58,099 nucleotides of DNA from an uncultured Microcaldota archaeon (GCA_903835385.1 CAILMQ010000047.1:1-58099), one strand, 5' to 3'; shown: positions 30,440 through 47,145, numbered from the stretch's first letter. Notes: generated by a model from the sequence alone, not told the origin. Program-made: numbers and translations.

Positions 30440-30772
30440 CTATAACTTGCCGGCCAGCAGCTTGAAGTACTGCCTTGCCACCTTGATGGCGTCCTCGCCC
30501 TTTTTCGTCATGCTGTAGTATTTCCTGCGCTCCTCGAACTCGGATTTTATCAGGCCCTCGTTCTCCAGCTTGTAGAGCACTATATAGACCATGACCCTGG
30601 AAGGCCTGAACGCGAATCCCTTTTCAATGTCCGAATCCAGCGTGTAGGCATAGGCTCTGCCTTTCTTCCTTATGAGCGAGAGGATGTAGAGCCAGAGATT
30701 GCCGAACGTGAGCAGGTTCTCGAGGCGTTGGATGGGCTTTGCACTCCGGGCGCTGCTTTCACTGGAGGGCAT
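30440..30772 (-). CDS. PadR-like winged-helix regulator
   Basis: The 110-residue protein has a winged helix with IRKKGRAYAYTLDSDI, RPSRVMVYIVLYKLENEGLI and the wing EERRKYYSMTKKGEDAI, the classic PadR layout. Its ATG shares one base with the stop of the 1005-residue membrane protein gene (TGATG). The two are therefore co-translated, and it is the best local candidate to regulate that gene and the divergent membrane-protein operon (inference). Confidence 0.8.
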   Translation of the reverse strand: MPSSESSARSAKPIQRLENLLTFGNLWLYILSLIRKKGRAYAYTLDSDIEKGFAFRPSRVMVYIVLYKLENEGLIKSEFEERRKYYSMTKKGEDAIKVARQYFKLLAGKL

Positions 30773-33700
30773 CAGGATTCATCTTCGCCGGTGGGTTTCT
30801 TCTTCTTACCCCTTGTGACGGGCTTCGCTGCTTCGGTTTCCTGCTCCCTTTCTACTCTGACGGGTTCGCTGGGAGCCACGTGTGTCTCAGCTGCTTCATG
30901 TTCAGGTTTGGGCGGTGGTTCGGACCCCGGCCCGCCTCCCCCTCCGCCAGCCATTCTTGGTACGGCTGGTGCCGTTCCTCCGCCGGCTTCAGGAGGCTTC
31001 ACCCCTGGCGGAAGGCTGAGATTGTCCATTACATATTTAAGCGTGTCTACATTGGCCTGCCCCGTGATGACGGGGTTTGTGGCCGCGGCTTCCGCCCAGG
31101 CTGCCACCTGCCGGAGATTCGTTTCCCTCTGTTCCGGAGCCCTTTCGGTCGCCACTGCGGCCACGACCGCATTGGCAACACTCGGGCTTATCCGCTCGCC
31201 ACCGAGTTCGGTGAGTTCCGAAGAGAACTGCTTTTTCATCTCGGTGGTGTATGCCGCCATGTAAGTCGTAGTCCCGGGCGTAGCCGAAGTACTCGCTGCA
31301 GCAGACACAGCAGCCGCCTCCGCCTTCTGGAAAATCGCACCTACGACCTCCGGGTTGTTCCTCAGCTCCTGTTTAAGCTTATCCGAAACCCCCTCGACGC
31401 CCTCTAGGGCGCTGGCCACGCGGGTGGCGTGAAATTCGTCCGCAAGGGCACTGGAATTGGCTGCCACGGCCTGGAGTTCGGCCTGGCGCTCCACCACGGC
31501 TGCTCCGAGCATTTTCACATTGTCCGCAACGTGCCCGACTTCGTCCGAGCCGAGCTTGATTCCGGTCACGCTGTCCACGGTCGGATGGCGCTCGCGCGAG
31601 GTCTCACTTTCGTTTCTATCTATTATGTCCGTGATTCTCCCATTGGTTACCTGGAACACCACGCCGTTGTTCGTGTCATTGCCGCCTTCTCCCGGCCTTA
31701 TGACCTGGTATGTGTCTGTTGGGCCGAGCGGATTCGTCACCACCGTGACCGCGCCACCGTATTCCTGGGCATTGAACCTGCTCTCCACTGTGATTGCGGT
31801 AGCGAGCGCGCCGGTGACCGCATCCATGTTGAATTCCTTTGCAGCCGCGGCGAATTCCTTGCCAGGCGCGGTGGCTCCCTGAAGCAGCCAGGGTGCGGCT
31901 ATGGTCGTTCCGACTGAGGCGATTTTGCCGCCATCAATGTTCACTACAGTATCAACACCCGGTGGCGCCTTGCTATCTGAAGCTAGTACTATGGTGAATT
32001 TGCCACTGGCCACCTCCTCAGGGGTTCCCAGGATGGTTATTTTTTGTCCGTTCGCGAGACTGACAGTGGCCTGGTCCATGATTATATTGGTCGGGTCCCT
32101 AAGCCCGAATTGGAACGCTTCCGTCCCCACCAGGGCCATGACCTCCTTCATGTCGACTCTGCCCAGCACGGCCGCCCTGTCCTTGCCGCCGAGTTCGGTC
32201 CAGACGCTTTTGATTTTGCCCTCTTCCACAGTGGCGGTCTTGTCGCCTATGGTTATCCGTCCGTTAATGGAGCCCATGCGCAGGCTCGCCTCGTCCAGGG
32301 TCACCAGCACCTTTTTGCCGCCTACGGTCATCTCGACTACGACCTTATTCACTTTCTTGCGATCTTCTATCTCAATCGTTTTTTTGGTGCTCAGTATGAC
32401 CACTGGAGGTTTGCCCTGCCCCGCTTCCCCGCGCTTGACCTCTATGCTCTGCGATACCGCCGCGCCCAGTTTGGCCGCGACCTCATTTGCCAACGACGCG
32501 CTTCCTGCGGCAAGCTGTGCCGCCTGTAGCAGGCTCGACGCCCTTGCCGAGTCATTCGGAGTAAGCTGCCCGATTGACCTCAGGTTCGCTCCTGCCTGTT
32601 TAACGCCGCCCACCGCCTGGGCTACAATCGAGCTCTTCATAATGGACTTTTTCGCGCCGGCCATGTCCCCCCTGGCGGCATGGTAAGCCGCTGCCGCACC
32701 ATAGCCGACAAGGCCTGCAAGCTGCCCAATAGCGCTGAATCTTGAACCCGGGCTGATGGTCTGGCCTCTCAGCACCTCCCTCAAGCTGCGCGCCCCGCCC
32801 CCGGCCACCTTCCCGCCGCCCACCAGCTGTACCTTGCCCCCTGCATCTTTGCCTTGTTTGGCCTGTTGTGCCTGTTGCTGTGCGGCTTTTATATTTTGTG
32901 ACGTGTCGATGGCGGCCGTGACAATCTTTTCGCCTTTCTTGCCCTGTGTCAGGCCGGCGAGTTTTTTCACCCCTGCGGTCAAAGCCTTTCCGGTCAAATC
33001 CGTTGTTATGCCCTTTGCATACGTTTCCAGGACGCCGGCGCTGATGCCCGCGCCCCTTCCCTTGGCCTCGTACCTTATGTGCTTGCCCACCCTGGGCGCT
33101 GTGAAGTCAAAGCCGCCGAACGGGTTCTTTCCGCTGAGGAAAAGCCCGCCTCCGAGCACCGTGAATATGAGCAGCAGCGGGAAGCATATGGTGGGCACGC
33201 TGCTCAGGGGCAGCGGCGACGGGCAGTAGCTTGCAGTGTCCATGGTCGGCAGCGCCACGTAGCACCGCACGGCTGGCGGCACCTTGGCATTCGGGGCCGG
33301 TGTTATGGTCTGTGCTGTGCACGAAGTCGCACTGCAGACGCCCCCGGCATTGCACGGTATGTTGGAGTAATTGAGGCAGTTCTGGAACCCGCAATCCGAG
33401 GAACCGATGCAGGTGAACGGGCAGTACATGACCTTGAAGTCCATGCAGCCCCCGGCATACGCCGAGAAGTCCAACACGGCCCTGCCGTTCGCGTCGGTGT
33501 AAATCTTGTACGTCTTGTCGAACGTGTTGTTGAACATCTCCACGATTATCGTGGTGTTCGCGAGAAATGGCCTCGGGTTGACCGGGTCGGACGCGTTCTC
33601 GTAGAAGAAGGTGCCGGTGAGATTGTAATTCTCGCTGTCCAGGCTGAGGAACATCTGCGCCCTCGGCGCACCCTCTATTTCCTTGCACCCCGGGCAGTCG

Positions 33701-33789
33701 GTGTCCGGCATTGCGCACTGGGCAACGGAAGGCTTAATCACAATCGCCACAAAAACCAGCAATGCCAGGAAAAGCAATCTCGCTCGCAT
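30772..33789 (-). CDS. Exported single-pass membrane protein with large cytosolic region (1005 aa)
   Basis: The protein has a signal peptide (about 1-24). A Cys-rich extracellular segment follows (25-198; many Cys, for example CPGC and CIGSSDC). One membrane helix (about 199-219) is followed by basic residues, so the remaining 785 residues should be cytosolic. That part is Ala/Gly/Gln-rich, with repeated beta-rich stretches of the type GKITI-G-V (about 480-690) and a Pro/Gly/Glu C-terminus ending in Lys. No known domain is recognised. It is transcribed divergently from the six-paralogue operon over a 50-nt shared promoter and co-translated with a PadR-like gene. A role as a scaffold of the same membrane complex is inferred. 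Confidence 0.7.
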   Translation of the reverse strand: MRARLLFLALLVFVAIVIKPSVAQCAMPDTDCPGCKEIEGAPRAQMFLSLDSENYNLTGTFFYENASDPVNPRPFLANTTIIVEMFNNTFDKTYKIYTDANGRAVLDFSAYAGGCMDFKVMYCPFTCIGSSDCGFQNCLNYSNIPCNAGGVCSATSCTAQTITPAPNAKVPPAVRCYVALPTMDTASYCPSPLPLSSVPTICFPLLLIFTVLGGGLFLSGKNPFGGFDFTAPRVGKHIRYEAKGRGAGISAGVLETYAKGITTDLTGKALTAGVKKLAGLTQGKKGEKIVTAAIDTSQNIKAAQQQAQQAKQGKDAGGKVQLVGGGKVAGGGARSLREVLRGQTISPGSRFSAIGQLAGLVGYGAAAAYHAARGDMAGAKKSIMKSSIVAQAVGGVKQAGANLRSIGQLTPNDSARASSLLQAAQLAAGSASLANEVAAKLGAAVSQSIEVKRGEAGQGKPPVVILSTKKTIEIEDRKKVNKVVVEMTVGGKKVLVTLDEASLRMGSINGRITIGDKTATVEEGKIKSVWTELGGKDRAAVLGRVDMKEVMALVGTEAFQFGLRDPTNIIMDQATVSLANGQKITILGTPEEVASGKFTIVLASDSKAPPGVDTVVNIDGGKIASVGTTIAAPWLLQGATAPGKEFAAAAKEFNMDAVTGALATAITVESRFNAQEYGGAVTVVTNPLGPTDTYQVIRPGEGGNDTNNGVVFQVTNGRITDIIDRNESETSRERHPTVDSVTGIKLGSDEVGHVADNVKMLGAAVVERQAELQAVAANSSALADEFHATRVASALEGVEGVSDKLKQELRNNPEVVGAIFQKAEAAAVSAAASTSATPGTTTYMAAYTTEMKKQFSSELTELGGERISPSVANAVVAAVATERAPEQRETNLRQVAAWAEAAATNPVITGQANVDTLKYVMDNLSLPPGVKPPEAGGGTAPAVPRMAGGGGGGPGSEPPPKPEHEAAETHVAPSEPVRVEREQETEAAKPVTRGKKKKPTGEDES

Positions 33790-33839: not shown

Positions 33840-35048
33840 ATGCGCCCGGTCAGGCACCTGTTGCTATTGCTAATCGTGCTCGGAATCGCATCCGCAGCGC
33901 CTCCGGACTTCACGCCCATAGTGCCCGCCACGGCCATAATCGTGGCAATCTTCCTGGCAATGATGAACATGTTTTCGGCAACTGTCTCGTCCCCCCAGCT
34001 GGACGCCTGGGCCAAGAACGAGCTCCGCGAACTCATCGCAGGGGTGATACTCGCGGCGCTGATATACGGGTTCTTCGTCGGTTCCACGAGCATTATTCCG
34101 GCCTTAACCGGCAAGTCCGATTACATGAAGGCGTCGCAGGACGTCCTGGACAACCTTCTGACCAACCAGACCACGGGGTTGGACCGTGCGTTCGACGACA
34201 TCATACGCGCCGGAACCAGGGTCAGGGCCGCGGCATCGTACTCGCCCTCCATCAGCATACCCGCATATTGGGTCGGCATCGGCTACACGACCTCCCCCCT
34301 GAGCGGAGTGGCCCCGCTTTTCTCCGCGCTCGCAGCATCCACCACCGGCCTCGCGAACAGCATCTTCCTCTACGAGGGCCTGCTGTTCCTGCTGAAGTTC
34401 TGCGCCACCGCGGTGCCCGCGATGCTCCTGCCAATCTCGCTATGCATCCGCATGATTCCCTTCACGCGGAAAACCGGGAACACGCTGGTGGCAATCTGCC
34501 TGGCCGGCATGGTGCTCGTGCCGTTCTCCGTCATCCTGGTAGGCGAGATGAACAAGGCCATCAACTATCCGCAGGTATATCTCACCAGCTCCCAGCTCGA
34601 CCAGCTGGACCCTGGCGCCTGGGCCATGACCGTAGCGGAGCCGTTCTGCCAGAACATGGTCATACGCCTCATCCTCTCGCTCAACGACCTGATGTTCTCC
34701 CTGGTGATATGCCTGCCGTTCCTGCTCATCCCGATTTTCGGCGCCGGGATATTCGCGGTCTGCCAGCCCCTTGTGCAGAATCTGGTATACCCCATCCTGA
34801 TGATGGTGATGCAGGCTGCCTATGACATCGCCCTGGGAGCCTGGATAGCCTTCGCAGGGGAGGGCATAGGCTACAGCGACAGGGCGTTCGACGTGCTCGT
34901 GGTTTTCCTGAGCAACGTGAACAATGCAATCCTGCTCAGCTACCTGGACACAATAATAATAGGGATAATAACCATATCCGGGGCGCGCAGCATCTCGACT
35001 GCGCTGGGGGGCGAGTGGTATCTCGCCGGAATACAGAGGTTCGTGTGA
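33840..35048 (+). CDS. Polytopic membrane protein, paralogue 1 of 6
   Basis: This 402-residue membrane protein has a signal-like N-terminus (HLLLLLIVLGIASAAPP) and about 7-8 membrane helices. Family marks shared with the five following genes are LDAWAKNELRELIAG after the first mature helix, PISLCIRMIPFTRKTGNTLVAI in the middle, and the C-terminal ALGGEWYLAGIQRFV. It is the first gene of the operon, leaderless behind the shared TATA box. The family resembles VirB6/TrbL or CedA channel proteins in layout only; I cannot show homology. Gap to the next gene is 4 nt. Confidence 0.75.
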   Translation: MRPVRHLLLLLIVLGIASAAPPDFTPIVPATAIIVAIFLAMMNMFSATVSSPQLDAWAKNELRELIAGVILAALIYGFFVGSTSIIPALTGKSDYMKASQDVLDNLLTNQTTGLDRAFDDIIRAGTRVRAAASYSPSISIPAYWVGIGYTTSPLSGVAPLFSALAASTTGLANSIFLYEGLLFLLKFCATAVPAMLLPISLCIRMIPFTRKTGNTLVAICLAGMVLVPFSVILVGEMNKAINYPQVYLTSSQLDQLDPGAWAMTVAEPFCQNMVIRLILSLNDLMFSLVICLPFLLIPIFGAGIFAVCQPLVQNLVYPILMMVMQAAYDIALGAWIAFAGEGIGYSDRAFDVLVVFLSNVNNAILLSYLDTIIIGIITISGARSISTALGGEWYLAGIQRFV

Positions 35049-35052
35049 TGCC

Positions 35053-36006
35053 ATGAAGGGACCGATATTGCTCCTGCTCCTGATGAGCGCGGTGTTCTCC
35101 GCGTCCTGCATCAGCGACGCCGGCGACACCATACTCAGCGAGCAGGGGCTCGCCATAGCCGTGGCGTTCAGCCTCACCATAATGGTCATCGCGGTCGCCT
35201 ACGCGGCGGGCACGGTCACGGCCAACTCCGGGCTCACCATATTCGCCAAGGACGAGCTCTACCACCTGTTCTTCTCGGTCATGCTGCTTTTGGGCTTCTC
35301 CGGCATACTGGTCTTTTCCTGCCAGACCATGAACATCTTCTACGACTCCACGATGTCCCAGATGGGGGCCCTCTCGTGCTACCATCCGGGAAACAGCCTC
35401 AGCGCGACATCCATGTGCTACATCAAGCTGGCCAAGAGCGACGCGGAGAACATCGCCAAATATTACATCAGCCAGCACATAGAGAACATGATGCAATCCA
35501 CGTTCTCGTTCACGGTCTCCATCCCCTTCATGGACGCCTACACCTCGGTGGCGGACAGCTATCACAAGGTCCATGCCCAGCAGTACGACATGGTGCTCAA
35601 CAGCTTCGTGCTGCCCGCGCTTCTCAGCATCAACATGCAGAAGCTGCTACTGGAATTCGTGAACAACAACGTGATACCCTGGGTGCTGCCCATAGCGTTC
35701 CTTTTCAGGGTGATACCCCCCTTCCGCTCCATGGGCAACACGCTCATCGCCCTGGCGGTGGGGCTCTACATATTAATACCCTTCATGTACACGTTCAACC
35801 TGTCCATGTACGACATAATGGGCCAGGGATGCAGCGGGTTCTCCGCCGGCGTGGACGATTTCGTGTTCGGCCCCGGCTGCAGCACCTACGGGTTCTGGAA
35901 CGTGGGCAGGCTGATGCCCCAGGCGTTCTTCCTGCCCAACCTCACCATGGCGCTGTTCATAACTTTCATGGCTGCGATAAACAAGGCATTGCGGGCGATA
36001 GGGTGA
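35053..36006 (+). CDS. Polytopic membrane protein, paralogue 2 of 6
   Basis: The 317-residue product has a signal-like start (ILLLLLMSAVFSASC), about 5-6 membrane helices, and the family marks LTIFAKDELYHLFF and PIAFLFRVIPPFRSMGNTLIAL. Unlike the others it ends shortly after its last helix (INKALRAIG) and lacks the LGG-type tail. Several Cys lie in the predicted extracellular loops (SCYHPG, GCSGF, GCSTYG). GTGTGATG precedes its start. Confidence 0.72.
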   Translation: MKGPILLLLLMSAVFSASCISDAGDTILSEQGLAIAVAFSLTIMVIAVAYAAGTVTANSGLTIFAKDELYHLFFSVMLLLGFSGILVFSCQTMNIFYDSTMSQMGALSCYHPGNSLSATSMCYIKLAKSDAENIAKYYISQHIENMMQSTFSFTVSIPFMDAYTSVADSYHKVHAQQYDMVLNSFVLPALLSINMQKLLLEFVNNNVIPWVLPIAFLFRVIPPFRSMGNTLIALAVGLYILIPFMYTFNLSMYDIMGQGCSGFSAGVDDFVFGPGCSTYGFWNVGRLMPQAFFLPNLTMALFITFMAAINKALRAIG

Positions 36007-36007
36007 T

Positions 36008-38146
36008 ATGGTGAAGCACAAAATCATGCTGGCGGCCTTCCTGCTGCTCCTGTCAGCCCCGCTCCTCGCCCAGAACGTCACCAACGTGGTGCAGAACGCG
36101 CCGACAGGCGCGGCGTTCGAGCTGTTCAACAACTGGCAGGCCCTGGCGGCCATAGCCCTGGTGATATCCACCATACTGGTCGGCATGGCCTACGCGGCTG
36201 GCATAGGCTTCCAGATGTCCGAGCTGGAGGCATGGGCAAGGAGCGAGCTCGGCCAGGTGTTCGCAAACGCCGTCATCGTGCTGGCGCTCATCGCCACGGT
36301 CGCGCTGATAGACGCCCTGACCATGGAAATCGTGAACGTCTCGGGCATAGGCGGGCTGCACTGCAGCCCGGGCCAGAACTGCCTGAACAAGACCGCCAAC
36401 GCCTATCTGGAGGATTACATAAACCTTTCCAGGGACGGCGCGAGGAACGTGCTCCACCAGAACCTTGCCGCGACCGCATGGGCGAACAGGAGGTTCAGCG
36501 TCACCTGCTACGTAATATATTGTGCGCAGGTGGGCGTCTCGTGGTCGCTCTGGGCCCACTACATACTGGATTCGGACAGGTTCTCGCTGGTCTTCGAGTA
36601 CTACCAGGGCGTGATGTCCTCGCTCTACTCGCAGAAATTCTTCGTGAGCGAGATATGCTTCAAGATAGGGCCGCTCATACTCGCGGCCGGCATTGTGGCG
36701 CGGTCGTTCTTCCTCTCGCGCAAGGTCGGAGGCCTCCTCATAGCCATAGCCGCAGGCATAATGTTCTTCTTCCCGGCAATGTACATCTTCGACTGGATGA
36801 GCATGGACATGGCCATAACCGGGGACACGGGCACAGTGGCGCCGGCAGACTGCCCCCTGGAATGCAGCTACGTGGCTCCCATAGCATATTACAACCAGAG
36901 CCCGGGTGTCCCAGCGGCCCTGAATACCACGTCGCAGGTATACGCCCTGTTCGACGAGACCAAGTATAACGCCGTCAGGGACCTCGTCCTGGGCAAGACC
37001 AGGTCCATGAAAAACGCCTCCGGCGTCCTGGTGGTCTCCTGCGAGAACTGGAGCGTGCACGTGAAAGACGCGAGCTGCGCGACGGGCAACGGCGAGTGCG
37101 ACGTTGCATGCGACCGCTCCTGCAGGGAACTGCCATATCCGACCGGCTCCAGCACCTGCGTGAACTACACCATGCAGGTCGCCTGCGCCGCGCTTCCCCC
37201 GGAATGCAAGGTGACGCGCCTGGTGGCGGTGGTGGATGTGGAGGAGAACAAATCATGCCCCGCGGACTGCAAGATAGTCCCGCCGCTGAGAAGCGACTGC
37301 AACCTGGCCGCCACGAACAGCAACAAGCCCGGGGGCAACTGCCTGTATTCCCGCTTCGACTGCAGGGTGGCGGAGACAAACGACCTGAGCTGGAGGCCTT
37401 CCATAGACACCAACATCAAGAACGCCGACCGCTGCAACGTCTATCCCAAGGACTGCATCGCAAGCACGGACGCGTCGCAAAGCTGCGTGTGGGTGCTGCC
37501 GCCCTTCGGCTCATGCGACGACTCCTGCGACGGATGCCCGCAGGAGTGCAGGATATCCAACGGCACGAAGAGCATGTCGAAAATCCTGCCGGATTACTGC
37601 ACGAACGTGAGCCTTGACGGCCCGGCATGCAAAAAATGCACGGACATGTGCAAGGTGCCCATTGACGCGATATACGCAAAAGCCCCCTCGGACAGCGTCA
37701 ATTGCAGCAGATGCCCGCAGACAATGCGGATAACCGGCACGAACCTTCCAGCCAACTATTTCCTCGACAACAACGGCTGGTTTTTCAGCACGAGCTGCTC
37801 CCCTGACAGCTGCCCGTTTGATTACCGTGTTACGGTACCCTCCAGCATATGCGAAACCTGCGGAGGCATTGACGAGGAATACACCTACAACCCTCCCCTT
37901 GACACCGAATGCACGGACCTGTGCAAGCCTCCTGACGGCGGGCCATCCAAATCATCGGGCGACTATACCAAAATAGGGGAGGAGGGCCTGGTGGGCAGGC
38001 AGGAAATCCAGTCAGTGTCCAAGTTCATGGGCCCGGCCTACCTGCTGCCCCTGCTGAACATCGCAGCAACGCTCATAGTGATAAAATCCCTTTCCGAGAT
38101 GCTTGGCGGGGACGTGGAGATACCGGGCATATCAAAGATATTCTGA
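36008..38146 (+). CDS. Polytopic membrane protein with Cys-rich ectodomain, paralogue 3 of 6
   Basis: The 712-residue protein is the longest of the set. It has a signal peptide (KIMLAAFLLLLSAPLLAQ). The first helices carry LEAWARSELGQVFAN. A helix pair follows with ARSFFLSRKVGGLLIAI. A large insert (about 275-655) with some 50 Cys in short CxxxC-type clusters should be extracellular. A last helix and the shared tail LGGDVEIPGISKIF finish it. The insert resembles the Cys-rich parts of the 1611-residue lipoprotein downstream. It probably forms disulfides, for which the thioredoxin-like protein at 11.6 kb could serve. Confidence 0.75.
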   Translation: MVKHKIMLAAFLLLLSAPLLAQNVTNVVQNAPTGAAFELFNNWQALAAIALVISTILVGMAYAAGIGFQMSELEAWARSELGQVFANAVIVLALIATVALIDALTMEIVNVSGIGGLHCSPGQNCLNKTANAYLEDYINLSRDGARNVLHQNLAATAWANRRFSVTCYVIYCAQVGVSWSLWAHYILDSDRFSLVFEYYQGVMSSLYSQKFFVSEICFKIGPLILAAGIVARSFFLSRKVGGLLIAIAAGIMFFFPAMYIFDWMSMDMAITGDTGTVAPADCPLECSYVAPIAYYNQSPGVPAALNTTSQVYALFDETKYNAVRDLVLGKTRSMKNASGVLVVSCENWSVHVKDASCATGNGECDVACDRSCRELPYPTGSSTCVNYTMQVACAALPPECKVTRLVAVVDVEENKSCPADCKIVPPLRSDCNLAATNSNKPGGNCLYSRFDCRVAETNDLSWRPSIDTNIKNADRCNVYPKDCIASTDASQSCVWVLPPFGSCDDSCDGCPQECRISNGTKSMSKILPDYCTNVSLDGPACKKCTDMCKVPIDAIYAKAPSDSVNCSRCPQTMRITGTNLPANYFLDNNGWFFSTSCSPDSCPFDYRVTVPSSICETCGGIDEEYTYNPPLDTECTDLCKPPDGGPSKSSGDYTKIGEEGLVGRQEIQSVSKFMGPAYLLPLLNIAATLIVIKSLSEMLGGDVEIPGISKIF

Positions 38147-38157
38147 GGCAGATTGAC

Positions 38158-39132
38158 ATGAGGGCAAAGGCATTGCTGGCGATGTTCCTGCTGGTGTCCG
38201 CCAGCTTCGCCGCATGGCAGACCACCGCGGCGCTGGCCATGGTCACGTCCCTAATACTGGTCGCGATAGTCTTCATGATAGGATTCGGCTTCGGAGTGGA
38301 CGCCCTCACGGGCATGGCAAAGGACGAGGTCTACCAGCTGATAGTGCTTGCAGTGATGGTCGCGGCGCTTTACGGGACTGACAGTTTCATAAACGCCCTG
38401 TCCACCAACACCGAGCTCGCCCAGGGCGCGCCGAACCTGCAGACCGCCGCCCTCCTGAGCCTGAACAGCACCATAGACAGCCTGTCCACGGACTATGCCA
38501 GCGTGCGCGCAGTGGACAAGAGCGCAGGCATAGCCTCATCGCAGATGCTCTCCTGCCAGCTCCAGAGCATCGGCTACACCGTGTCGGGCTGCGGCGGGTT
38601 CTCCATGCTCGCGGGCCCGTTCTCCCTCGCAGGCACCATCATGGGTTTCGCGCTCGGCGAGCTGAACGCGGTCCACAGGCTAATCGAGCTCGGGCTCGCC
38701 TACGCGCTGACGCTGCTCCTTCCCCTGGGCATAGTGCTGCGCACGTTCAGGTTCACGCGCGGCGCGGGCGGCTTCCTCATCGCCATCGCGGTCTCCATCC
38801 ACATCCTGCTGCCCGCCGGCATAGTATTCGTGGACATGCTCGGCGAATCGTTCCTCGCGAGCTCCGACGCGTCCCTCTACCAGCCCAAGGACACGCTGAG
38901 CGGAGTGAGCGCGTCATGCGAGCCCGGCGACACCGGGGATGGCAACAGCGACGCGGCCATAAGCGTGTACAATTCGCTGCGGGCCGCGATAAAGAGCTAC
39001 ATGTACATCATATTCGTGAAAGCCACGCTGGGCCCGGTGGTCGCGGTGCTCATGATGAGCGCGGGAATAAGGGCGATATCCTCGCTCGCCGGGGCAGAGG
39101 TGGACGTGAGCGCATTGGCGAGGGTGGTCTGA
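38158..39132 (+). CDS. Polytopic membrane protein, paralogue 4 of 6
   Basis: The 324-residue protein has the family order: N-terminal signal-like helix, LTGMAKDEVYQLIVLAV, a luminal region with a Cys pair (SCQLQSIGYTVSGCGG), LPLGIVLRTFRFTRGAGGFLIAIAV, and the tail LAGAEVDVSALARVV. About 6 membrane helices are predicted. It begins 11 nt after paralogue 3. Confidence 0.74.
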   Translation: MRAKALLAMFLLVSASFAAWQTTAALAMVTSLILVAIVFMIGFGFGVDALTGMAKDEVYQLIVLAVMVAALYGTDSFINALSTNTELAQGAPNLQTAALLSLNSTIDSLSTDYASVRAVDKSAGIASSQMLSCQLQSIGYTVSGCGGFSMLAGPFSLAGTIMGFALGELNAVHRLIELGLAYALTLLLPLGIVLRTFRFTRGAGGFLIAIAVSIHILLPAGIVFVDMLGESFLASSDASLYQPKDTLSGVSASCEPGDTGDGNSDAAISVYNSLRAAIKSYMYIIFVKATLGPVVAVLMMSAGIRAISSLAGAEVDVSALARVV

Positions 39133-39133
39133 C

Positions 39134-40285
39134 ATGGCTAAACCAACCATCCTCCTCGCATTCCTTTTCCTGCTCCTGCCCGCCCTGCACGCAGACCTGG
39201 CTCCGCCCGCGGTAGACTTGTGCTCTGCGGATTTCATGAGCCCCATAGAGGTGATATGCGGAATCGCGAGCATTGCCGCCATACTGCTCATAGCGTTCGG
39301 CTATCTCCTGGGCCAGGTCACAAGCAACCCCAAGGTGAGCGTGTGGGCCAAAAGCGAGATACTGCAGGTGCTGATGTCCATCGCCTCGTTGTTTCTCCTG
39401 ATGCTCCTGGTGAGCTCGTTCTGCGCCATAAACATGAGCGAGGTGGCGTCCATATTCGACATCCCCATGGCGCCGAATTCGGCTTATTCGGGCAACGTGT
39501 ATTCCGCGGCCCTCGGATACCTGACCAACACGCTCGTTTTCAGCCATGACGCGCTCAGGGTGATACGCTACCACCTGGAGGCGTTCACGGTGCTCAGCCA
39601 GATAAGCCTGTTCAGCTGCGACATGAAGAGCCCGTCCATAGACGTCTTCGGGGTCTTCAGCATCCCGGCCATAGGGTGGGGCTGCTTCTTCTCCTATTCC
39701 GGCACCCAGGGCCAGGCGCTCGGCGCGTATTCCTCGGTCATGGGCGCGCTCAACCTGTTTTACAACAGCACCCTGGTGGCCTACATCACCACGCTCAACT
39801 TCCTGTTCATACTGATGTTCATATACAAGGGGTTCGTGCTGTTCCTGCTCCCGTTCGCCATATTCATGCGCTCCATGCCCTACATGCGCTCCTTCGGCTC
39901 CCTGCTCATAGCAGTGGCACTCTCCTTCATGATAATATACCCGCTCATGCTCGCGGTGTTCGGGATGATGGCGGACGTGCTGCTCAGGGAGCCGCCCAAC
40001 GTGGCGCAGTTCATGAACGAGAACACATTCCCTGACAATACTGGCGCCAGCGCGCTGGGAGCCTCCACGGCCGCGGCGCTCAGCAGCGGAGCGGCCTATT
40101 TCGAGCACATATATTTCCCCAATGGCGACAATGTCGCCGGGGCGATAGCCTTCGCGGCCTACGCGTTCATAGCCGGAGTGTTCCTGCCCACATCCGCGCT
40201 GCTCGCGGCCATGGCCTCGGTGAACTACCTGGCGAGGATTTACGGTGAGGATATAGACCTGAGCAGGATACTCCAGATGGTGTGA
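39134..40285 (+). CDS. Polytopic membrane protein, paralogue 5 of 6
   Basis: The 383-residue protein has a cleavable-looking signal (ILLAFLFLLLPALHA). It then has VSVWAKSEILQVLMSIAS, LPFAIFMRSMPYMRSFGSLLIAVAL, and the C-terminal YGEDIDLSRILQMV in place of LGGD. Seven or so membrane helices are predicted. It begins 1 nt after paralogue 4, so translation is coupled. Confidence 0.74.
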   Translation: MAKPTILLAFLFLLLPALHADLAPPAVDLCSADFMSPIEVICGIASIAAILLIAFGYLLGQVTSNPKVSVWAKSEILQVLMSIASLFLLMLLVSSFCAINMSEVASIFDIPMAPNSAYSGNVYSAALGYLTNTLVFSHDALRVIRYHLEAFTVLSQISLFSCDMKSPSIDVFGVFSIPAIGWGCFFSYSGTQGQALGAYSSVMGALNLFYNSTLVAYITTLNFLFILMFIYKGFVLFLLPFAIFMRSMPYMRSFGSLLIAVALSFMIIYPLMLAVFGMMADVLLREPPNVAQFMNENTFPDNTGASALGASTAAALSSGAAYFEHIYFPNGDNVAGAIAFAAYAFIAGVFLPTSALLAAMASVNYLARIYGEDIDLSRILQMV

Positions 40286-40287
40286 AC

Positions 40288-41337
40288 ATGATGGTGCCAT
40301 TGCTCTCAGCGTTTGATTTCTTCGGCAATGCCGGCGTGAACTGGATGGACAACTGGTTCCCGATGTGCATACTGGCCACCCTTCTTGCCGTGACCATCCA
40401 CGCCACGCTCATCGCGTTCTCCAAGGCGTTCAAGATGACCGAGCTGGAGCACTACGCGGAGTCCGAGATACTTCAGGCCCTCGCCACGGCCTTCATAGCC
40501 ATATTCCTGGTGGGCCTCGTGGGCGGGGCAACTGATTTCGTCGGCAACATCGTGGGAACCGGCGGCTCCTATGTGACGTGCGGCAACACGCAGATGCCGG
40601 TCATTGCGTCCGGCACTGCGACCAAGGACTCCTTCCAGACCATGCTGGACATCGTGCAGTGCAGGCTCCATGAAAAGGCGGTCTCAATAGCAAATGCCCA
40701 GGCGGCAATTTCCACAGGCAGCGCAGCCAAGTTCAACCTGCTCAACCTGGGGGTGTCGTTATTCGGAGTAACCGTGTTCAAGGGCGACTGGATAAGCAGC
40801 TGGTTCAGGGACACGGAGACGTTGCGCATCACGAACAACCTCGCCACGGTGCTGCTCGTGGGGCTCAACGCCCAGTCCTTCCTCGTGCTTTACGTGAAGA
40901 ACACCATGCTGACCATGTTCATACCCCTGGGCATACTGCTCAGGGCGTTCCACTTCACGCGCGGCGCGGGCGCGCTGTTCATCTCCCTTGGAATCGGGCT
41001 ATACTTCCTGTTCCCGGTCTTCTTCGTGCTCCTGGACCCGGGTTTCGTGAAAATAGACGCGGCCCCGAACATGGGAGGGGCGCAGGTGGTGTCGCAGGGC
41101 CTCTGCTATCCCACGCTGAGCGCCGCGGTGTCGCTCATGACCACCAACAACCAGGCCTCGCCTACGGTGTCGCTTTCGTTCGCCCGGCTCCGCGACCAGC
41201 TCTCGCAGGCCTATATAGGCCTCATGCTGCACCCATTGGTCGCCCTGTTCCTCACGCTCGCGTTCGTGCGCTACATGATGACGCTGCTGGGCGGAGACCC
41301 GTACACCGTGATGAGAATGGTAACCAAGGTGATATAG
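40288..41337 (+). CDS. Polytopic membrane protein, paralogue 6 of 6
   Basis: The product of about 349 residues lacks the obvious cleavable signal of its neighbours but keeps TELEHYAESEILQALATAF, PLGILLRAFHFTRGAGALFISL and the tail LGGDPYTVMRMVTKVI. Mid-region Cys (VTCGNTQ, VQCRL) could pair outside the cell. ATG 40288 with GGTG upstream is preferred; a GTG at 40282 would overlap the previous stop. Confidence 0.73.
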   Translation: MMVPLLSAFDFFGNAGVNWMDNWFPMCILATLLAVTIHATLIAFSKAFKMTELEHYAESEILQALATAFIAIFLVGLVGGATDFVGNIVGTGGSYVTCGNTQMPVIASGTATKDSFQTMLDIVQCRLHEKAVSIANAQAAISTGSAAKFNLLNLGVSLFGVTVFKGDWISSWFRDTETLRITNNLATVLLVGLNAQSFLVLYVKNTMLTMFIPLGILLRAFHFTRGAGALFISLGIGLYFLFPVFFVLLDPGFVKIDAAPNMGGAQVVSQGLCYPTLSAAVSLMTTNNQASPTVSLSFARLRDQLSQAYIGLMLHPLVALFLTLAFVRYMMTLLGGDPYTVMRMVTKVI

Positions 41338-41340
41338 AAG

Positions 41341-44300
41341 ATGAAACCCGCCGCCTCTGCCGCACGCATTATCCTCGCCATCCCGCTCGCCGTTGCCTTC
41401 TTCATGCTGCTTTCCGCGGGATGCATCGAGAAATCCAAGGCCCTGGGCTGCTGCGTGCTGACCAACGCGACAAATCCCCCCTACAAGTGCTTATGGTTCA
41501 ACATGTCCAACGACAGGTTCGTGGACCTGTACTCCAAGACCAAGTTCTGCGACCAGGGCACCCAGATGTGCAATGTCACGTCCCTGGACCCTGCCAACCC
41601 CAATATCCAGCTTGAGATACCATTCTGCACGGACGACACCATAACCCAGTGCATAAAGCCCGACTGCCTTGCCATGGTCTGCGGCGATTTCACATACAAG
41701 CCCAAGGTCGCTCCGGGAGTGGCCACTGCGGAGGATGCGGCGGACACGGCTCCGGCGAACGACACCAAGGAGACCACCCAGGCGCTCTACAACGGCCAGT
41801 GCAGGTTCCTTCCAATGGACTCCAAGCTTAAGATAACCATGAAGACCTCGAAATCCGCCATAAACGACTTCAGGTTCGGCATAGGCAAGGATTTCGACGA
41901 ATACGACTACTACCACTATTATTTCCCCGTATCGGACAGGCTCTGCATGACAAATCCCACCGGAAGCATAGACCGGTACATGAACTACCTGCAGCCCGGG
42001 ACCGGCGGCGTTCCGGTTCCCTACGACCCGAAAACGTCTTTGACCGGGTCCTGCACCACGGACGCGTCGGCAGCGCCGCCCGCAAGCTTCGCCCCGACGC
42101 CGGCCTCGGCAAGCCTGCCCCTTATCCGGGATTCAAAATCCTACGCCTATCAGGACTACGCCGACTTCGCCTGGACAGTCACGTCCAAGGGCTGGTCCAC
42201 GTCCATGGGTTTCAACCTCTCCGGATACTACGAGGACCTGGGCAGGTCTTTCTACAGGACAACCCTCTCCACCGCCTACGTGGACAAGTTCTACAGCGAT
42301 GCCACGGCCCGCGCGCCATTCGAGTGCGACCAATCAAAGTACGAGTGCCTCTCGGGCAGATGCGCGAACGACTTCTACAACAGGGGCGTGAACCTGGTAA
42401 CCAGGGCGGACGGGACTGCGGAGGATCCGATGGTCACGGACTGCAAGAGCATCAAAACCACGACTGGCCAATCCATGGTGGTGTGCTACCCCACAATCAG
42501 CGCGAACAACAACGGAGGCACCGCGAACCTGCAGTACGCCAAGGTCACCTACAGGACATTGGATAACCTGGAGCCCACGGATGACTACAGCCACGACGAT
42601 TTGAAATTGGGATCGACCGATTACCATAACCCGGGCAGGGCACAGATCGACTATCTATTGAATCCCTGGGGCGGGGTCGCCTTCGGTTTCAACGGCAACT
42701 CGGGAGCGATTGGCGGTTCCCTGTTCTATCTTGGTCCTGGGACTGCGGTGACGATGCTTCCGAAAGATTTCAACTACACCTGGATGGACACCACCGGAGC
42801 GTATCCGCCTGCCGCCCAGATAGCGTTCTTTGACAACCCCAATGTCCAATTCAATGGCGAACAGATTATCGGCTATGCGGTGATGGATGACGGCGAGCTT
42901 TATAAGACATATTTTGGGCAGAACTGCCTTTTGAACAATTACTATAGCAATCCCAGGTATTCATACAACCCCAAAACCCCGGTATCAGAGGCCGACTGCG
43001 AGGCCGACTGCACCGGCTCCTCCTACTGCACCGCAGCGCACCAGTCCGATTGCCATGATTATTGCACCGCGCGCGTGAACGAACGTACCGGCCTCACGGA
43101 CTACGCATACGTCCCCACGCCCGGGACAGCCACATCAATGGACAACTGCATAAAGGAGTGCAACAGCACCGCCTTCTGCGGGCCGGCGAACACCTCCAAT
43201 TGCCAGGACTATTGCAACGCGCGTTTGATGACCGTGGATACGGGAAACGCTAAGAACTATTCGTATACCGACACCTCTTACGTTGGAAAGACAGCCCAGG
43301 GCAGTTGTCCTACAAGCAGCTCAATCTGCCTAACCTTACCTACCGACGATTACAATCATGCCATAGCCGCGTGCGCAAGTGCTTGTAATGATACCTCTGT
43401 CTGCGGGCCGGACAGCAATGTTGACGCATCTGGTTATTCTTATGCTGGCAGATGCTATGCCTATTGCAACGCGCGCGTATCACGCGATGCCCAAGGCCTA
43501 ATCGCGCTCAAAGAGCCGGAGCCGGAAACACCATGCCAGTATGGGTCAAGCTTGACCGCAATCAACGATGACGCCACGCCCGCACCGGCATGCACCTATA
43601 CCAAAACCGCGGTCACGCTCAATGCTCCGGATCCTGCAGCGCCATGCACGTATACTGTGAAATACTCGCAGACACCAAACCCCACATATACTAACAAGGG
43701 TGCCTACAAGGAAACAAGCGACTTCATAGAAGTGCAGCTCTCGGCCTACTCGTACGGCACCTTGGGCGACCAGGCGGGAACATACAGCAAGGGAGGGCCG
43801 CCCGGTTCTGCGAACGGGGGGCTCGAGGACGCGCAAAACATGAACAATCCGGATGATCTGGCAAATTACCAAAGGCTGATTTATGCTTTCGAGCCGCTCT
43901 TCAACGACACCCTTGACGGCTATTCGTCATCCGCGGGGTGGGAAGACAAATGCAGCCCGTGGAACAGTGTCGATGTGAATGACATGTTGTTCGCCGCCAT
44001 GCCCTGGGTGCCGATGTACAAGAAATACCTCAGCAACGGCGAGCATCTGGTCCTGAACGCGCCAGCACTGAATTTTTTCAGGCAGGACAACGTTTTTGGC
44101 CAGGATACCAGTACCACGCCCCTCATCTCAGGCAACAATATCTGCGACCTCGAAATGGTATCGGCAAAGTATACCGGCATAGGCCAGGGCGCCAGGGATT
44201 GGATTCCAATCGACTACCAGGCCCTGCTCCCAAATACGATATACCTGCTCAAAGGCACGACGGATGCGCAAGGCAACATAAAAATAGGCAAGTGCAACGT

Positions 44301-46176
44301 CGTCTCGGGGTCGACCCTGCCCGAGATCAAGACGTACGGCTGGTGCGAGCCGTGCACGCTCGCCACCCTTGCCTACCAGAACATAACTGCGGGCAACACC
44401 GTGAAGATTCCCAAGTCCACACTGAAGCTAGAGCCAGGTTTCACGCCGAACCCCAGCAACATCTATCCATCCAACGGCACCCCGATATGCAACTTCCTGA
44501 ACGTCTTCCAAGGCGTAAAAACCTCCTGCAGCAGCACGGCCATAAGCGACATCGGCGATTACAGCGACCTGTTCATTTCTTACTGGGGCAGCGCGACCGA
44601 AGTCACGCCCGAAGGGGTTCCCAGGACCAACCAGGACGCAGCCCTTCTCAAGGAGCGCATGGGCAACTACCTCAAGTCAGGCATAATGCCTGTGATGGAC
44701 ATCTCGGACAAAAGCAACTGGAACCTCTCCGCGCCCTACATCACGGAAACATTCGTGGATTCGTCCGGCTCCACGCAGCAGCTGAGCAAATACACGGAGT
44801 ACGATTTCCAGCGCCTGTTTGGCAATAATGGCGCCATGGTCGTGATAGTGGACACTTTCAATTACTCCTCGCCCTCCATTTCCGTAAAAAGGATATTGAA
44901 CAGGACCGCGCTGGTGAGGGCGAGCTGCTCCAGGTGCCTGACCGCGGCCAGGGTATATGGCACCGAGTCGGGCTTTTATATCTATAACGACAGCCTGAAG
45001 CAGATGTTCGGCCCGGGCTCGGACCCGAGGCTGAAGCTTAACGTGGACATGATTGTGACCGATTACGACGCTTCGAAGTTCGGCGTTTTGGAGTATTCGG
45101 CCTCAAGCCCGGCCATAAACAAAATCCAGACACTGTCGCAGGGGTTCCTCGGCTCCAGGTTCGGAAGCGCGCTCCAGTCAGGGTACGTGTCGCGCATGCT
45201 CGGAACAACCACGTTCCAGGACAGGATTTCATACGTGCTGGAGGACATGGAGGGCTACGGGCACGCATCGCTGAGTTACAGTAAGCCCGTAATCATAACA
45301 GACTTCTCTGTCAACAACGACGTATTCTGGAACGACGCCACCCAGGAGCCGCTCTTCAGCGCCATAATAGCCAACGAGGACCAGCTGGTGAAATCCGGCA
45401 TCATCGGCATAATATACCAGCCGGTCCGCTTCACCGCCGCGGGCGGGCCGAATAACGGCCTTGTGAACGCCTCATCCCCGTTCCTTATGGCAGCAGTCGC
45501 GAGCGTCGGAGTGGGGTTGGCGGGTTTCACCTCGGGAATCGTCGTGAACCCGGAGGTGTCGCCAACGCTCGGAGTCAAAACGCAGAAATTCTGCGCCCTT
45601 GAGAACGCCGTGAACAGGATGGCAGGCACCAACCCATACGCGACTTTCGTCCAGGTGTACGACCTGCCTTCCGTGAACTGCACGCTCTGTTCGTCCACGG
45701 AAAAATCCCAGGGGCTCTGCGACCGGAAGTGCGACAACGGCGCCTGGTGCACGATGCCGGTTGCTGGCGCGGCCCTGAGCGACTACAAGTGCCCCGACGA
45801 CACCATTGCCGGCGCATGCACGCTCTGCAACCAGACGAACAAGGTATACAACTGCGTCAAGACATTCGGCAATGGAAGCATAATCCCCCAAACTCCCGTG
45901 CCATCCACGGTCATAAGCACGGACGCATTCCAGGACGTCATCGGAGGCATTTCCAAGCCCGACAAGTGCTGCCTGACAGACGCGACAGGGCAGAACTACA
46001 CGTACTTCAAGAAAATGTACTACACCTCGGTGACGGCTCCGGCGGTGTTTTCCAGGACAGGGGACCAGAACCAGGACTGCGGCATAGGCACGGGCAAGTC
46101 CCTCACTGACATAGGCGGGTTCTGCGGCATAAACCTGCCGGTGCAGAACTTCGACATAGACTGCAAGGCGGCATGA
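41341..46176 (+). CDS. Giant Cys-rich lipoprotein (1611 aa)
   Basis: The N-terminus is a signal peptide ending in a lipobox, LLSAGC, so the protein is probably lipid-anchored outside the cell at Cys28. Residues about 550-715 hold three copies of a Cys module: C-x3-C, a C about 6 on, then DYC or AYC followed by NAR/TAR (nucleotides about 42990-43090, 43145-43235 and 43370-43480). A later part (about 1080-1430) has alternating beta strands and helices (PVMDISD, IVTDYDASKFG, KPVIITDFS, GIIGIIYQPVRF) that recall a TIM-barrel glycosidase-like fold; this is weak inference. The C-terminus is again Cys-rich. It begins 3 nt after paralogue 6 and is likely a partner or surface cap of that membrane complex. 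Confidence 0.72.
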   Translation: MKPAASAARIILAIPLAVAFFMLLSAGCIEKSKALGCCVLTNATNPPYKCLWFNMSNDRFVDLYSKTKFCDQGTQMCNVTSLDPANPNIQLEIPFCTDDTITQCIKPDCLAMVCGDFTYKPKVAPGVATAEDAADTAPANDTKETTQALYNGQCRFLPMDSKLKITMKTSKSAINDFRFGIGKDFDEYDYYHYYFPVSDRLCMTNPTGSIDRYMNYLQPGTGGVPVPYDPKTSLTGSCTTDASAAPPASFAPTPASASLPLIRDSKSYAYQDYADFAWTVTSKGWSTSMGFNLSGYYEDLGRSFYRTTLSTAYVDKFYSDATARAPFECDQSKYECLSGRCANDFYNRGVNLVTRADGTAEDPMVTDCKSIKTTTGQSMVVCYPTISANNNGGTANLQYAKVTYRTLDNLEPTDDYSHDDLKLGSTDYHNPGRAQIDYLLNPWGGVAFGFNGNSGAIGGSLFYLGPGTAVTMLPKDFNYTWMDTTGAYPPAAQIAFFDNPNVQFNGEQIIGYAVMDDGELYKTYFGQNCLLNNYYSNPRYSYNPKTPVSEADCEADCTGSSYCTAAHQSDCHDYCTARVNERTGLTDYAYVPTPGTATSMDNCIKECNSTAFCGPANTSNCQDYCNARLMTVDTGNAKNYSYTDTSYVGKTAQGSCPTSSSICLTLPTDDYNHAIAACASACNDTSVCGPDSNVDASGYSYAGRCYAYCNARVSRDAQGLIALKEPEPETPCQYGSSLTAINDDATPAPACTYTKTAVTLNAPDPAAPCTYTVKYSQTPNPTYTNKGAYKETSDFIEVQLSAYSYGTLGDQAGTYSKGGPPGSANGGLEDAQNMNNPDDLANYQRLIYAFEPLFNDTLDGYSSSAGWEDKCSPWNSVDVNDMLFAAMPWVPMYKKYLSNGEHLVLNAPALNFFRQDNVFGQDTSTTPLISGNNICDLEMVSAKYTGIGQGARDWIPIDYQALLPNTIYLLKGTTDAQGNIKIGKCNVVSGSTLPEIKTYGWCEPCTLATLAYQNITAGNTVKIPKSTLKLEPGFTPNPSNIYPSNGTPICNFLNVFQGVKTSCSSTAISDIGDYSDLFISYWGSATEVTPEGVPRTNQDAALLKERMGNYLKSGIMPVMDISDKSNWNLSAPYITETFVDSSGSTQQLSKYTEYDFQRLFGNNGAMVVIVDTFNYSSPSISVKRILNRTALVRASCSRCLTAARVYGTESGFYIYNDSLKQMFGPGSDPRLKLNVDMIVTDYDASKFGVLEYSASSPAINKIQTLSQGFLGSRFGSALQSGYVSRMLGTTTFQDRISYVLEDMEGYGHASLSYSKPVIITDFSVNNDVFWNDATQEPLFSAIIANEDQLVKSGIIGIIYQPVRFTAAGGPNNGLVNASSPFLMAAVASVGVGLAGFTSGIVVNPEVSPTLGVKTQKFCALENAVNRMAGTNPYATFVQVYDLPSVNCTLCSSTEKSQGLCDRKCDNGAWCTMPVAGAALSDYKCPDDTIAGACTLCNQTNKVYNCVKTFGNGSIIPQTPVPSTVISTDAFQDVIGGISKPDKCCLTDATGQNYTYFKKMYYTSVTAPAVFSRTGDQNQDCGIGTGKSLTDIGGFCGINLPVQNFDIDCKAA

Positions 46177-46197
46177 AGCGACTGGCCGGGTGTATGC

Positions 46198-46539
46198 ATG
46201 GGCATTCTTCAGATGTTCAAGGACGCGCTGCGCGGCGGCCCGGGCGGCGCGGGGGCAAAAGGCCAGTCGCAGAAATGCCCGAACTGCGGGGACCCGGTCA
46301 CGCTGGACATGGAACGCTGCCCCAAATGCGGGACGCACATAAAGAGCATGTTCAGGAGGAAGTGCCCGAACTGCGGCTCCCTCAACGAGCTGGACGCGCC
46401 AGCGTGCGTGAAGTGCAAATACAGCTTCGAGGCGGAATTGGAAAGGGCTAAAAGGACTTATTACGTATGTCCCATATGCGGGTACAGGAGCGAGGCCTTC
46501 CTCACGCAGTGCCCGGCATGCAATACGAAATTCATGTGA
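46198..46539 (+). CDS. Triple zinc-ribbon protein
   Basis: The 113-residue cytosolic protein consists almost entirely of three CxxC...CxxC zinc ribbons: CPNC/CPKC (about 29-48), CPNC/CVKC (about 59-79) and CPIC/CPAC (about 93-110). A charged helix separates the second and third. Such ribbons mediate protein or nucleic-acid contacts. It lies 21 nt after the giant lipoprotein in the same operon. Confidence 0.75.
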   Translation: MGILQMFKDALRGGPGGAGAKGQSQKCPNCGDPVTLDMERCPKCGTHIKSMFRRKCPNCGSLNELDAPACVKCKYSFEAELERAKRTYYVCPICGYRSEAFLTQCPACNTKFM

Positions 46540-46578
46540 ATGGGTTGCGGGATAAGGGGAAATCGGCGGGTAGGGGAG

Positions 46579-47145
46579 ATGTCAGAGACATTTGCAATGA
46601 AGCAGGAGGAGAAAAAGAAGGAGGACCAGAAGAAGAAATTCCTCTACCTGCTCGACGAGGACCAGGTGGAGGTCAAGCGCCTGGCCAGGGAGGACCTGGA
46701 GGAGTGCGTGAAGGTCATGCGCAAGTGCGCCTTCGACGTCACGGAAGCCGAAGTGGCCGGCATAATCGATTATAAGACGTCCTTCGGCTGCTGCGTCAAC
46801 CGCATGCTCATCGGCGTGGGCCTTTCATGGCCCGCGGTGTACGACCCCGAGAGGCGCACGGTGAGGGGCGGGGAGCAGACGAACGCGATATACCTGGAGG
46901 ACCCGGCGGTCCTCCTCTCTTTCGAAGGCAGGGACATAAGGCGCATCCTGCTGCGGCAGAGGGAGGAGGATGCGAAAGCAGCGGGCAAATCCTATGCCGT
47001 CGCCTACCTCTACGAGGACCTGCCCGGCGGCAGCATCGTGGATTCCATAAAAGGGGCCGGCTCCCAGCTCGGCAAGCTCTACCTTTCGGAGGAGTACGAG
47101 TTCTTCAAGACCGACAAGGGCATACTCACGGTTAAAAAACTGTGA
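46579..47145 (+). CDS. GNAT-like protein, last gene of the operon
   Basis: The 188-residue protein starts with a Lys-rich helix, then VKRLAREDLEECVKVMRKCAFD. That beginning is reminiscent of GNAT acetyltransferases, as are the later helix GRDIRRILLRQREEDAKAAGKSY and the final strand EYEFFKTDKGILTVKKL. The canonical acetyl-CoA Q/RxxGxG/A loop is not clear, so catalysis is uncertain. ATG 46579 is chosen; an upstream in-frame ATG at 46540 directly follows the zinc-ribbon stop and adds 13 unlike residues. Confidence 0.5.
   Translation: MSETFAMKQEEKKKEDQKKKFLYLLDEDQVEVKRLAREDLEECVKVMRKCAFDVTEAEVAGIIDYKTSFGCCVNRMLIGVGLSWPAVYDPERRTVRGGEQTNAIYLEDPAVLLSFEGRDIRRILLRQREEDAKAAGKSYAVAYLYEDLPGGSIVDSIKGAGSQLGKLYLSEEYEFFKTDKGILTVKKL

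Follow-up and report, generated by a model that had tools for sequence, protein, structure and literature searches.

What does an archaeon do with six related membrane-protein genes packed head to tail, and why six? The question is raised by a 58,099-nt stretch of DNA (GCA_903835385.1 CAILMQ010000047.1:1-58099; "the window", whose positions serve as our coordinates) from a 1.29-Mb metagenome-assembled genome (MAG). An earlier note, made from the sequence alone, had described six tandem paralogous membrane proteins followed by a giant Cys-rich lipoprotein, and proposed a secretion, DNA-transfer or cell-attachment complex of a DPANN-like archaeon, with the six copies probably arranged in hetero-oligomeric rings or channels. 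Our data demonstrate that the six genes, here A1-A6 (33840-41337), are homologous to one another, fixed in number and order, duplicated as a whole operon, and associated through linkage and co-occurrence with VirB2-, VirB3/4- and VirB4-like partners. The best overall explanation, to which we give a probability of roughly 0.7, is a chromosomally fixed conduit resembling Ced and type IV secretion systems (T4SS), with a VirB6/CedA-like channel of six non-identical subunits.

A1-A6 lie on the same strand, and the gaps between their open reading frames (ORFs) range from -4 to +11 bp. One iterated profile matches all six (E 1e-60 to 1e-79), and a plain query with one paralogue retrieves three other members of the A cluster and four further places in the same genome. 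The tandem array is thus as the earlier note saw it. Neither of the two outcomes that the note had named as counting against its proposal, unrelated folds or genes scattered in relatives, was observed: the six are mutually homologous and are never scattered. Exactly six paralogues were present in all 64 complete clusters examined (33 within the window's order, 11 from other families of its class and 20 fetched later as replication); where fewer were seen, the cluster was cut off by the end of its contig.

The source genome also carries a second six-gene cluster, B1-B6 (L009 8085-15714), and, on its own, one further paralogue, C (L010 10470-11552). In a tree of 204 paralogue sequences, A1-A6, B1-B6 and C of the window's order each form a clade of their own (13/13 monophyletic, support 0.86-1.0). 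Moreover, Ai is sister to Bi at all six positions (support 0.93-0.99), and C is nested within the position-6 clade. Position-specific profiles assigned held-out genes to their own position in 56 of 56 cases in families f14, f17, f19, f22 and f23, and in 114 of 114 cases in the 19 replication clusters called whole; in the twentieth (L186), A1 had been missed by the gene caller and is present (E 1.8e-90). The most distant families, f12 and f13 (L153, L155, L157), have six genes whose position is partly recoverable (9/18 best hits, P=0.001). Therefore, the position clades, the Ai/Bi sister pairs and the held-out matches show that the ancestor already possessed a six-subunit operon, later duplicated whole. 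They indicate that six distinct subunits predate the split of the A and B operons, and that none of them is dispensable.

Chance similarity among membrane proteins is ruled out by the position-specific clades and the 170/170 held-out matches, and an assembly artefact by the dozens of independent MAGs and the closed genome assigned to Mia14 (see below). The family was found in 40 of 40 near relatives and in 134 of 146 genomes across the phylum Micrarchaeota, to which the scan was confined. So wide an occurrence in the phylum, in an unchanging gene order, speaks against a mobile element and for a fixed system rather than a mobile conjugative T4SS. Nearly all of the 49 loci found among named genomes belong to "Candidatus Micrarchaeota archaeon", which bears out the DPANN-like host. 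One six-gene cluster, with a pilin-like ORF and an ATPase, is encoded by G046, putatively the chromosome of Ca. Mancarchaeum acidiphilum Mia14, which grows in co-culture (PMC5498576). The 2017 Mia14 paper mentions only type IV pili and possible conjugative elements (PMC5498576). In the open literature searched, we found no prior description of the six-gene system, and VirB6 and Micrarchaeota were never mentioned together.

Operon partners and likeness to type IV secretion

In families f12, f13 and f17 the six-gene cluster is the only one in the genome. Downstream of it lie genes for two ~270-aa proteins with two transmembrane (TM) segments and for an ATPase of ~500 aa, as well as three or four small genes that are conserved; small 2-TM ORFs with pilin-like sequence precede it. 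The ATPase, of VirB4/CedB type, shares an operon with the channel genes in L153, L155, L157, L159 and L160. It is also linked at C loci, which consist of the lone paralogue, one 2-TM protein and the ATPase, preceded in several genomes by a pilin-like ORF. The C-locus ATPase matches CedB at 1.4e-28, below the equivalog cut-off, as well as VirB4 families; the cluster-linked ATPase contains DUF87, AAA_10 and TraG/VirB4 P-loop domains above the Pfam cut-off. A tblastn search of plasmids with the C-locus ATPase returned bacterial VirB4/TraC at 22-28% identity and no usable archaeal neighbours. The source genome has both ATPases (contigs C63 and C40, the latter grouping with the cluster-linked type), both 2-TM proteins and one pilin (contig C48, E 5.9e-16).

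Comparison with a panel of ten R388 T4SS proteins identified the same partners: the ATPase profile picks TrwK/VirB4 and the pilin profile VirB2 (4e-7). The only credible match of the pilin profile in the PDB is likewise R388 TrwL/VirB2 (E 0.0012). For the 271-aa 2-TM protein, VirB3 is best in the panel (E 0.01), and its model (predicted local distance difference test score, pLDDT, 83.7) has as its best PDB fold match 7o41 (7o41_B, the R388 T4SS inner membrane complex; E 5e-3, probability 0.95), with a low TM-score of 0.25 and a 50-fold E-value gap to the next match (E 0.3). Of the 146 genomes, 134 have the paralogues together with this VirB4-N-terminal-domain (NTD)-like protein, 11 have neither and 1 is discordant (Fisher 1e-15), a count whose effective number is lowered by shared ancestry, although the absences are spread over four families.

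The AlphaFold2 model of A4 shows five TM helices, and a motif, P-x-G-x-x-x-R...R-x-x-G, is conserved between TM3 and TM4. The TM1-TM2 and TM3-TM4 loops contain 13% and 23% Lys plus Arg, against 5-6% in the ectodomains; this enrichment suggests that both loops are cytoplasmic and that the two variable domains lie outside. In 12 of 13 groups the TM1-TM2 hairpin (the N-terminal ~80 columns) can be aligned with the pilin profile, for the most part at modest probability, and reciprocal pilin/paralogue matches reach 1e-4 to 1e-6. A pilin-like N-terminus of the channel is a published relation for CedA1/CedA and VirB2/VirB6 (PMC9905601). Several features of a Ced- or T4SS-like machine were found: a polytopic 5-TM protein whose N-terminal hairpin resembles the cognate pilin, a VirB4/CedB-type ATPase linked to the channel genes, a VirB2/CedA1-type pilin and a VirB3/VirB4-NTD component. 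The connection to T4SS and Ced follows from the operon partners, the co-occurrence and this pilin-like N-terminus.

Several observations weigh against such a channel. None of the ORFs of the region that were tested, paralogues included, matched Pfam, NCBIfam or PHROG. A Foldseek search of the A4 model against the PDB gave no significant match (best E 0.07), even though a structure of R388 VirB6 exists; small TM bundles may be hard for Foldseek to detect. In the R388 panel the paralogue profile ranks VirB2 first, through the N-terminal hairpin, and VirB6 second and weakly (hmmsearch E 0.03); hhalign against R388 VirB6 found nothing, and PDB sequences gave chance matches only. In the window's order the ATPase and pilin genes lie on other contigs, outside the A and B operons. 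The single C paralogue has its own ATPase, which shows that a lone gene may be enough. In the T4SS-like loci inspected, neither a relaxase nor a DNA-processing gene came to notice, although no search was aimed at relaxases. Finally, R388 VirB6 is a homopentamer, situated below the pilus and above the VirB4 hexamer, so that a six-membered ring would be a departure (PMC9259494). The VirB6/CedA-type transfer complex suggested by the earlier note is supported by operon partners and co-occurrence; a direct relationship of the paralogues to VirB6 or CedA, in fold or in sequence, was not demonstrated.

In L160 (13034-14193) and L157 (69-956) the six-gene cluster is preceded by two or three divergent VirB2-like pilin genes in tandem, reminiscent of the pilin arrays in Patescibacteria T4SS. 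At L155 16870-18933, also upstream of the cluster, a 687-aa secreted protein ends in a pilin-like hairpin and is possibly a pilin-fused adhesin. The N-terminus of B2 in the source genome (L009 9353-10906; also L052) is fused to a pair of pilin-like TM hairpins in tandem. A ~100-aa stand-alone protein is homologous to a portion, probably the C-terminal region, of the family profile of the ATPase beside it (E ~1e-22). The Sulfolobus conjugative plasmid pNOB8 was dropped as a source of an archaeal VirB6, since only its ATPases were matched.

The proposed conduit and its rivals

In the machine that we propose, each protein would be a 5-TM VirB6/CedA-type subunit with its N-terminus outside, a pilin-like TM1-TM2 hairpin and two extracellular domains; an invariant Arg-rich cytoplasmic TM3-TM4 loop would face the ATPase. 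One of each subunit would most likely assemble into a single pseudo-hexameric pore, which would match the six-fold symmetry of the motor. The pore would rest on a hexameric ATPase of VirB4 type whose membrane-anchored NTD and motor are two separate proteins, and would be the base for a VirB2/CedA1-like pilus, in the manner of VirB6 in R388. The giant disulfide-rich lipoprotein of the A complex would be placed on the cell surface, probably for contact with partner cells. The cargo, passing between symbiont and host or kin, would probably be DNA, imported or exchanged as in Ced/Ted; proteins are less likely. DNA is favoured by the motor, whose closest relative is CedB.

The odds are slightly in favour of a fuller version, in which a T4SS/Ced-type conduit with a heterohexameric, asymmetric VirB6/CedA-like pore, whose six dedicated subunits would match the six-fold symmetry of the VirB4 motor, was ancestral in Micrarchaeota. 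It would have been duplicated whole in one order and some other families, giving two distinct pores and a third, single-gene one; one of these would be lipoprotein-decorated, and together they would form a symbiont-host transfer interface. If true, a secretion and DNA-transfer pore known in homo-oligomeric form became, throughout a phylum of archaea that depend on hosts, a hetero-oligomer with six obligate parts, by a ratchet like those behind proteasome and AAA+ ring diversification. It would also be a concrete candidate for the symbiont-host exchange of DNA or other macromolecules, an open question for Micrarchaeota.

The main rival concerns the cargo and overlaps with the same anatomy: export of effector proteins, or a nutrient conduit to or from the host archaeon, with the lipoprotein as host-contact adhesin. 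It is drawn from DPANN biology, where giant nanohaloarchaeal surface proteins with VirB4-like domains have been proposed to act on hosts (PMC10266531), and from a patescibacterium in which virB6 is essential for epibiotic growth (PMC12102498). The DPANN lifestyle, the giant secreted proteins adjoining the A and B clusters and the relaxase result above are consistent with it. However, the closest motor homologue is the DNA-import ATPase CedB, the archaeal relatives of known function (Ced) import DNA, and no effector candidates were identified. Delivery to a host is therefore possible but the less likely cargo assignment.

A further alternative retains the T4SS-like machine but not the single ring: the paralogues would make up several alternative assemblies, homo- or hetero-oligomeric, that differ in their ectodomains and serve receptor or antigen diversity, as one might picture for duplicated VirB6 in Rickettsiales. 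The ectodomains do differ strongly in length (410 aa and 34 Cys in A3), Rickettsia has five divergent VirB6 copies (PMC2653234), and the C paralogue is accompanied by an ATPase of its own. If the paralogues were alternatives, their number should vary and single ones should be lost, as Rickettsia virB6e is; the clusters are strictly six, never five or seven, positional orthology is 1:1 over very divergent families, and all six were co-duplicated. This makes separate oligomers improbable. Least likely is an unrelated polytopic family (e.g. for surface protein export or envelope biogenesis) merely located near T4SS genes, which would fit the missing VirB6 match but not the operon linkage in several families, the pilin-like N-terminus and the near-perfect co-occurrence with the VirB4-NTD-like protein. 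A T4SS-like conduit with a six-subunit channel thus remains our preferred reading.

The A locus and its neighbourhood

Features of the A locus in the window, and loci of a small ATPase-like protein in relatives
Feature	Position	Strand	Basis
A1, VirB6/CedA-like channel paralogue (putative), position 1, 402 aa, signal peptide, 5 TM	33840..35048	+	ORF; profile 2e-60; clade support 0.996; sister to B1 (0.99)
A2, paralogue position 2, 317 aa	35053..36006	+	ORF; profile 5e-63; position clade, A/B sister
A3, paralogue position 3, 712 aa, ~410-residue second ectodomain, 34 Cys	36008..38146	+	ORF; profile 6e-79
A4, paralogue position 4, 324 aa	38158..39132	+	ORF; profile; AlphaFold2 model pLDDT 91.6
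A5, paralogue position 5, 383 aa	39134..40285	+	ORF; profile; position clade, A/B sister
A6, paralogue position 6, 351 aa; A6/B6 clade includes single paralogue C	40282..41337	+	ORF; profile; tree
Giant Cys-rich lipoprotein, 1611 aa, lipobox LLSAGC, 63 Cys	41341..46176	+	ORF; homologues at A loci
Triple zinc-ribbon protein, 113 aa	46198..46539	+	six CxxC pairs; homologues in L047, L048; same place in L186
Conserved protein, earlier labelled GNAT-like (label unsupported)	46540..47145	+	kept at 5 further A loci
~1000-aa secreted/anchored protein, divergently transcribed	30772..33789	-	ORF; associated with A clusters
~100-aa ATPase-like protein	L153 16310-16639, L155 3332-3637, L157 16373-16669, L159 17284-17583, L160 2495-2794		

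The lipoprotein is an A-operon-specific surface component. It has a signal peptide and the lipobox that the earlier note described, and lipobox and length are conserved in its homologues, which come after A6 at another 18 A loci. Among the replication clusters it accompanies 10 of 10 A and 0 of 10 B; at L034 the sequence continues beyond A6 without it, and L048 ends too early to tell. The Cys pattern of the A3 ectodomain is conserved across 16 genomes. The zinc-ribbon protein, whose CxxC pairs amount to the three ribbons reported earlier, is sometimes conserved beside the A cluster. For its downstream neighbour, the GNAT-like label must be rejected, as Pfam contains no matching GNAT family at E<1. 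The conserved feature of A loci extends beyond the 33840-47145 region to the divergent gene upstream, which accompanies A clusters and has distant relatives near some B clusters.

Further genes in the window include one for a secreted protein whose C-terminal domain is a Lon-type (S16) protease (47313-49091, +); some relatives (L030, L033) retain it downstream of their A clusters. A HerA-type helicase with HAS-barrel and DUF87 domains (52729-54240, -) is encoded ~11 kb past A6; it is nearest to HerA, not to T4SS-like ATPases, and any linkage to A clusters would be tentative. HerA is also present in Ted loci. Elsewhere, L173 3054-9352 (G000 contig C63) holds about six or seven tandem paralogous ORFs sharing the motif KSTCR..LG.EIGEL..Y..WL.

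Comparison with known systems

Ced of Sulfolobales (CedA, CedA1, CedA2, CedB, CedD, CedE) is likewise a chromosomal set of a CedB-like ATPase, a 2-TM pilin and a polytopic channel with a pilin-like N-terminus (PMC9905601). A CedA-CedE hetero-oligomer has been proposed, and CedE has five TM segments (PMC11868833). In contrast, Ced has one or two channel genes and Micrarchaeota six obligatory ones, together with a separate VirB4-NTD-like protein; comparison through family libraries detected no channel homology. Ted of Thermoproteales (TedA, TedB, TedC) has a VirB6-, VirB4- and VirB2-type triad divergent from Ced, and the signal peptide of TedC is cleavable (PMC9905601); several Micrarchaeota pilins appear to share this trait. 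However, its channel gene, TedA, is single, and Ted's HerA/ParA/Rad50 neighbours were not seen in Micrarchaeota clusters.

The R388 Trw T4SS resembles the Micrarchaeota set in its pilin, ATPase and inner membrane complex, as the profile and fold matches indicate, and differs in its homopentameric VirB6; VirB8-10 and VirB11 were not identified in Micrarchaeota. Chromosomal T4SS of Patescibacteria (candidate phyla radiation, CPR) are also conserved machines of tiny epibionts, although of monoderm-bacterial type, and the available part of the source mentions no six-gene VirB6 array (PMC12102498). The rvh T4SS of Rickettsiales shares tandem divergent VirB6 copies, large variable flanking regions and a reduced-genome symbiont as its bearer (PMC2653234). 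There, however, the copies number five, one is lost in some species and one is not arrayed in Orientia, whereas the Micrarchaeota genes are strictly six, in fixed order, and duplicated as a unit.

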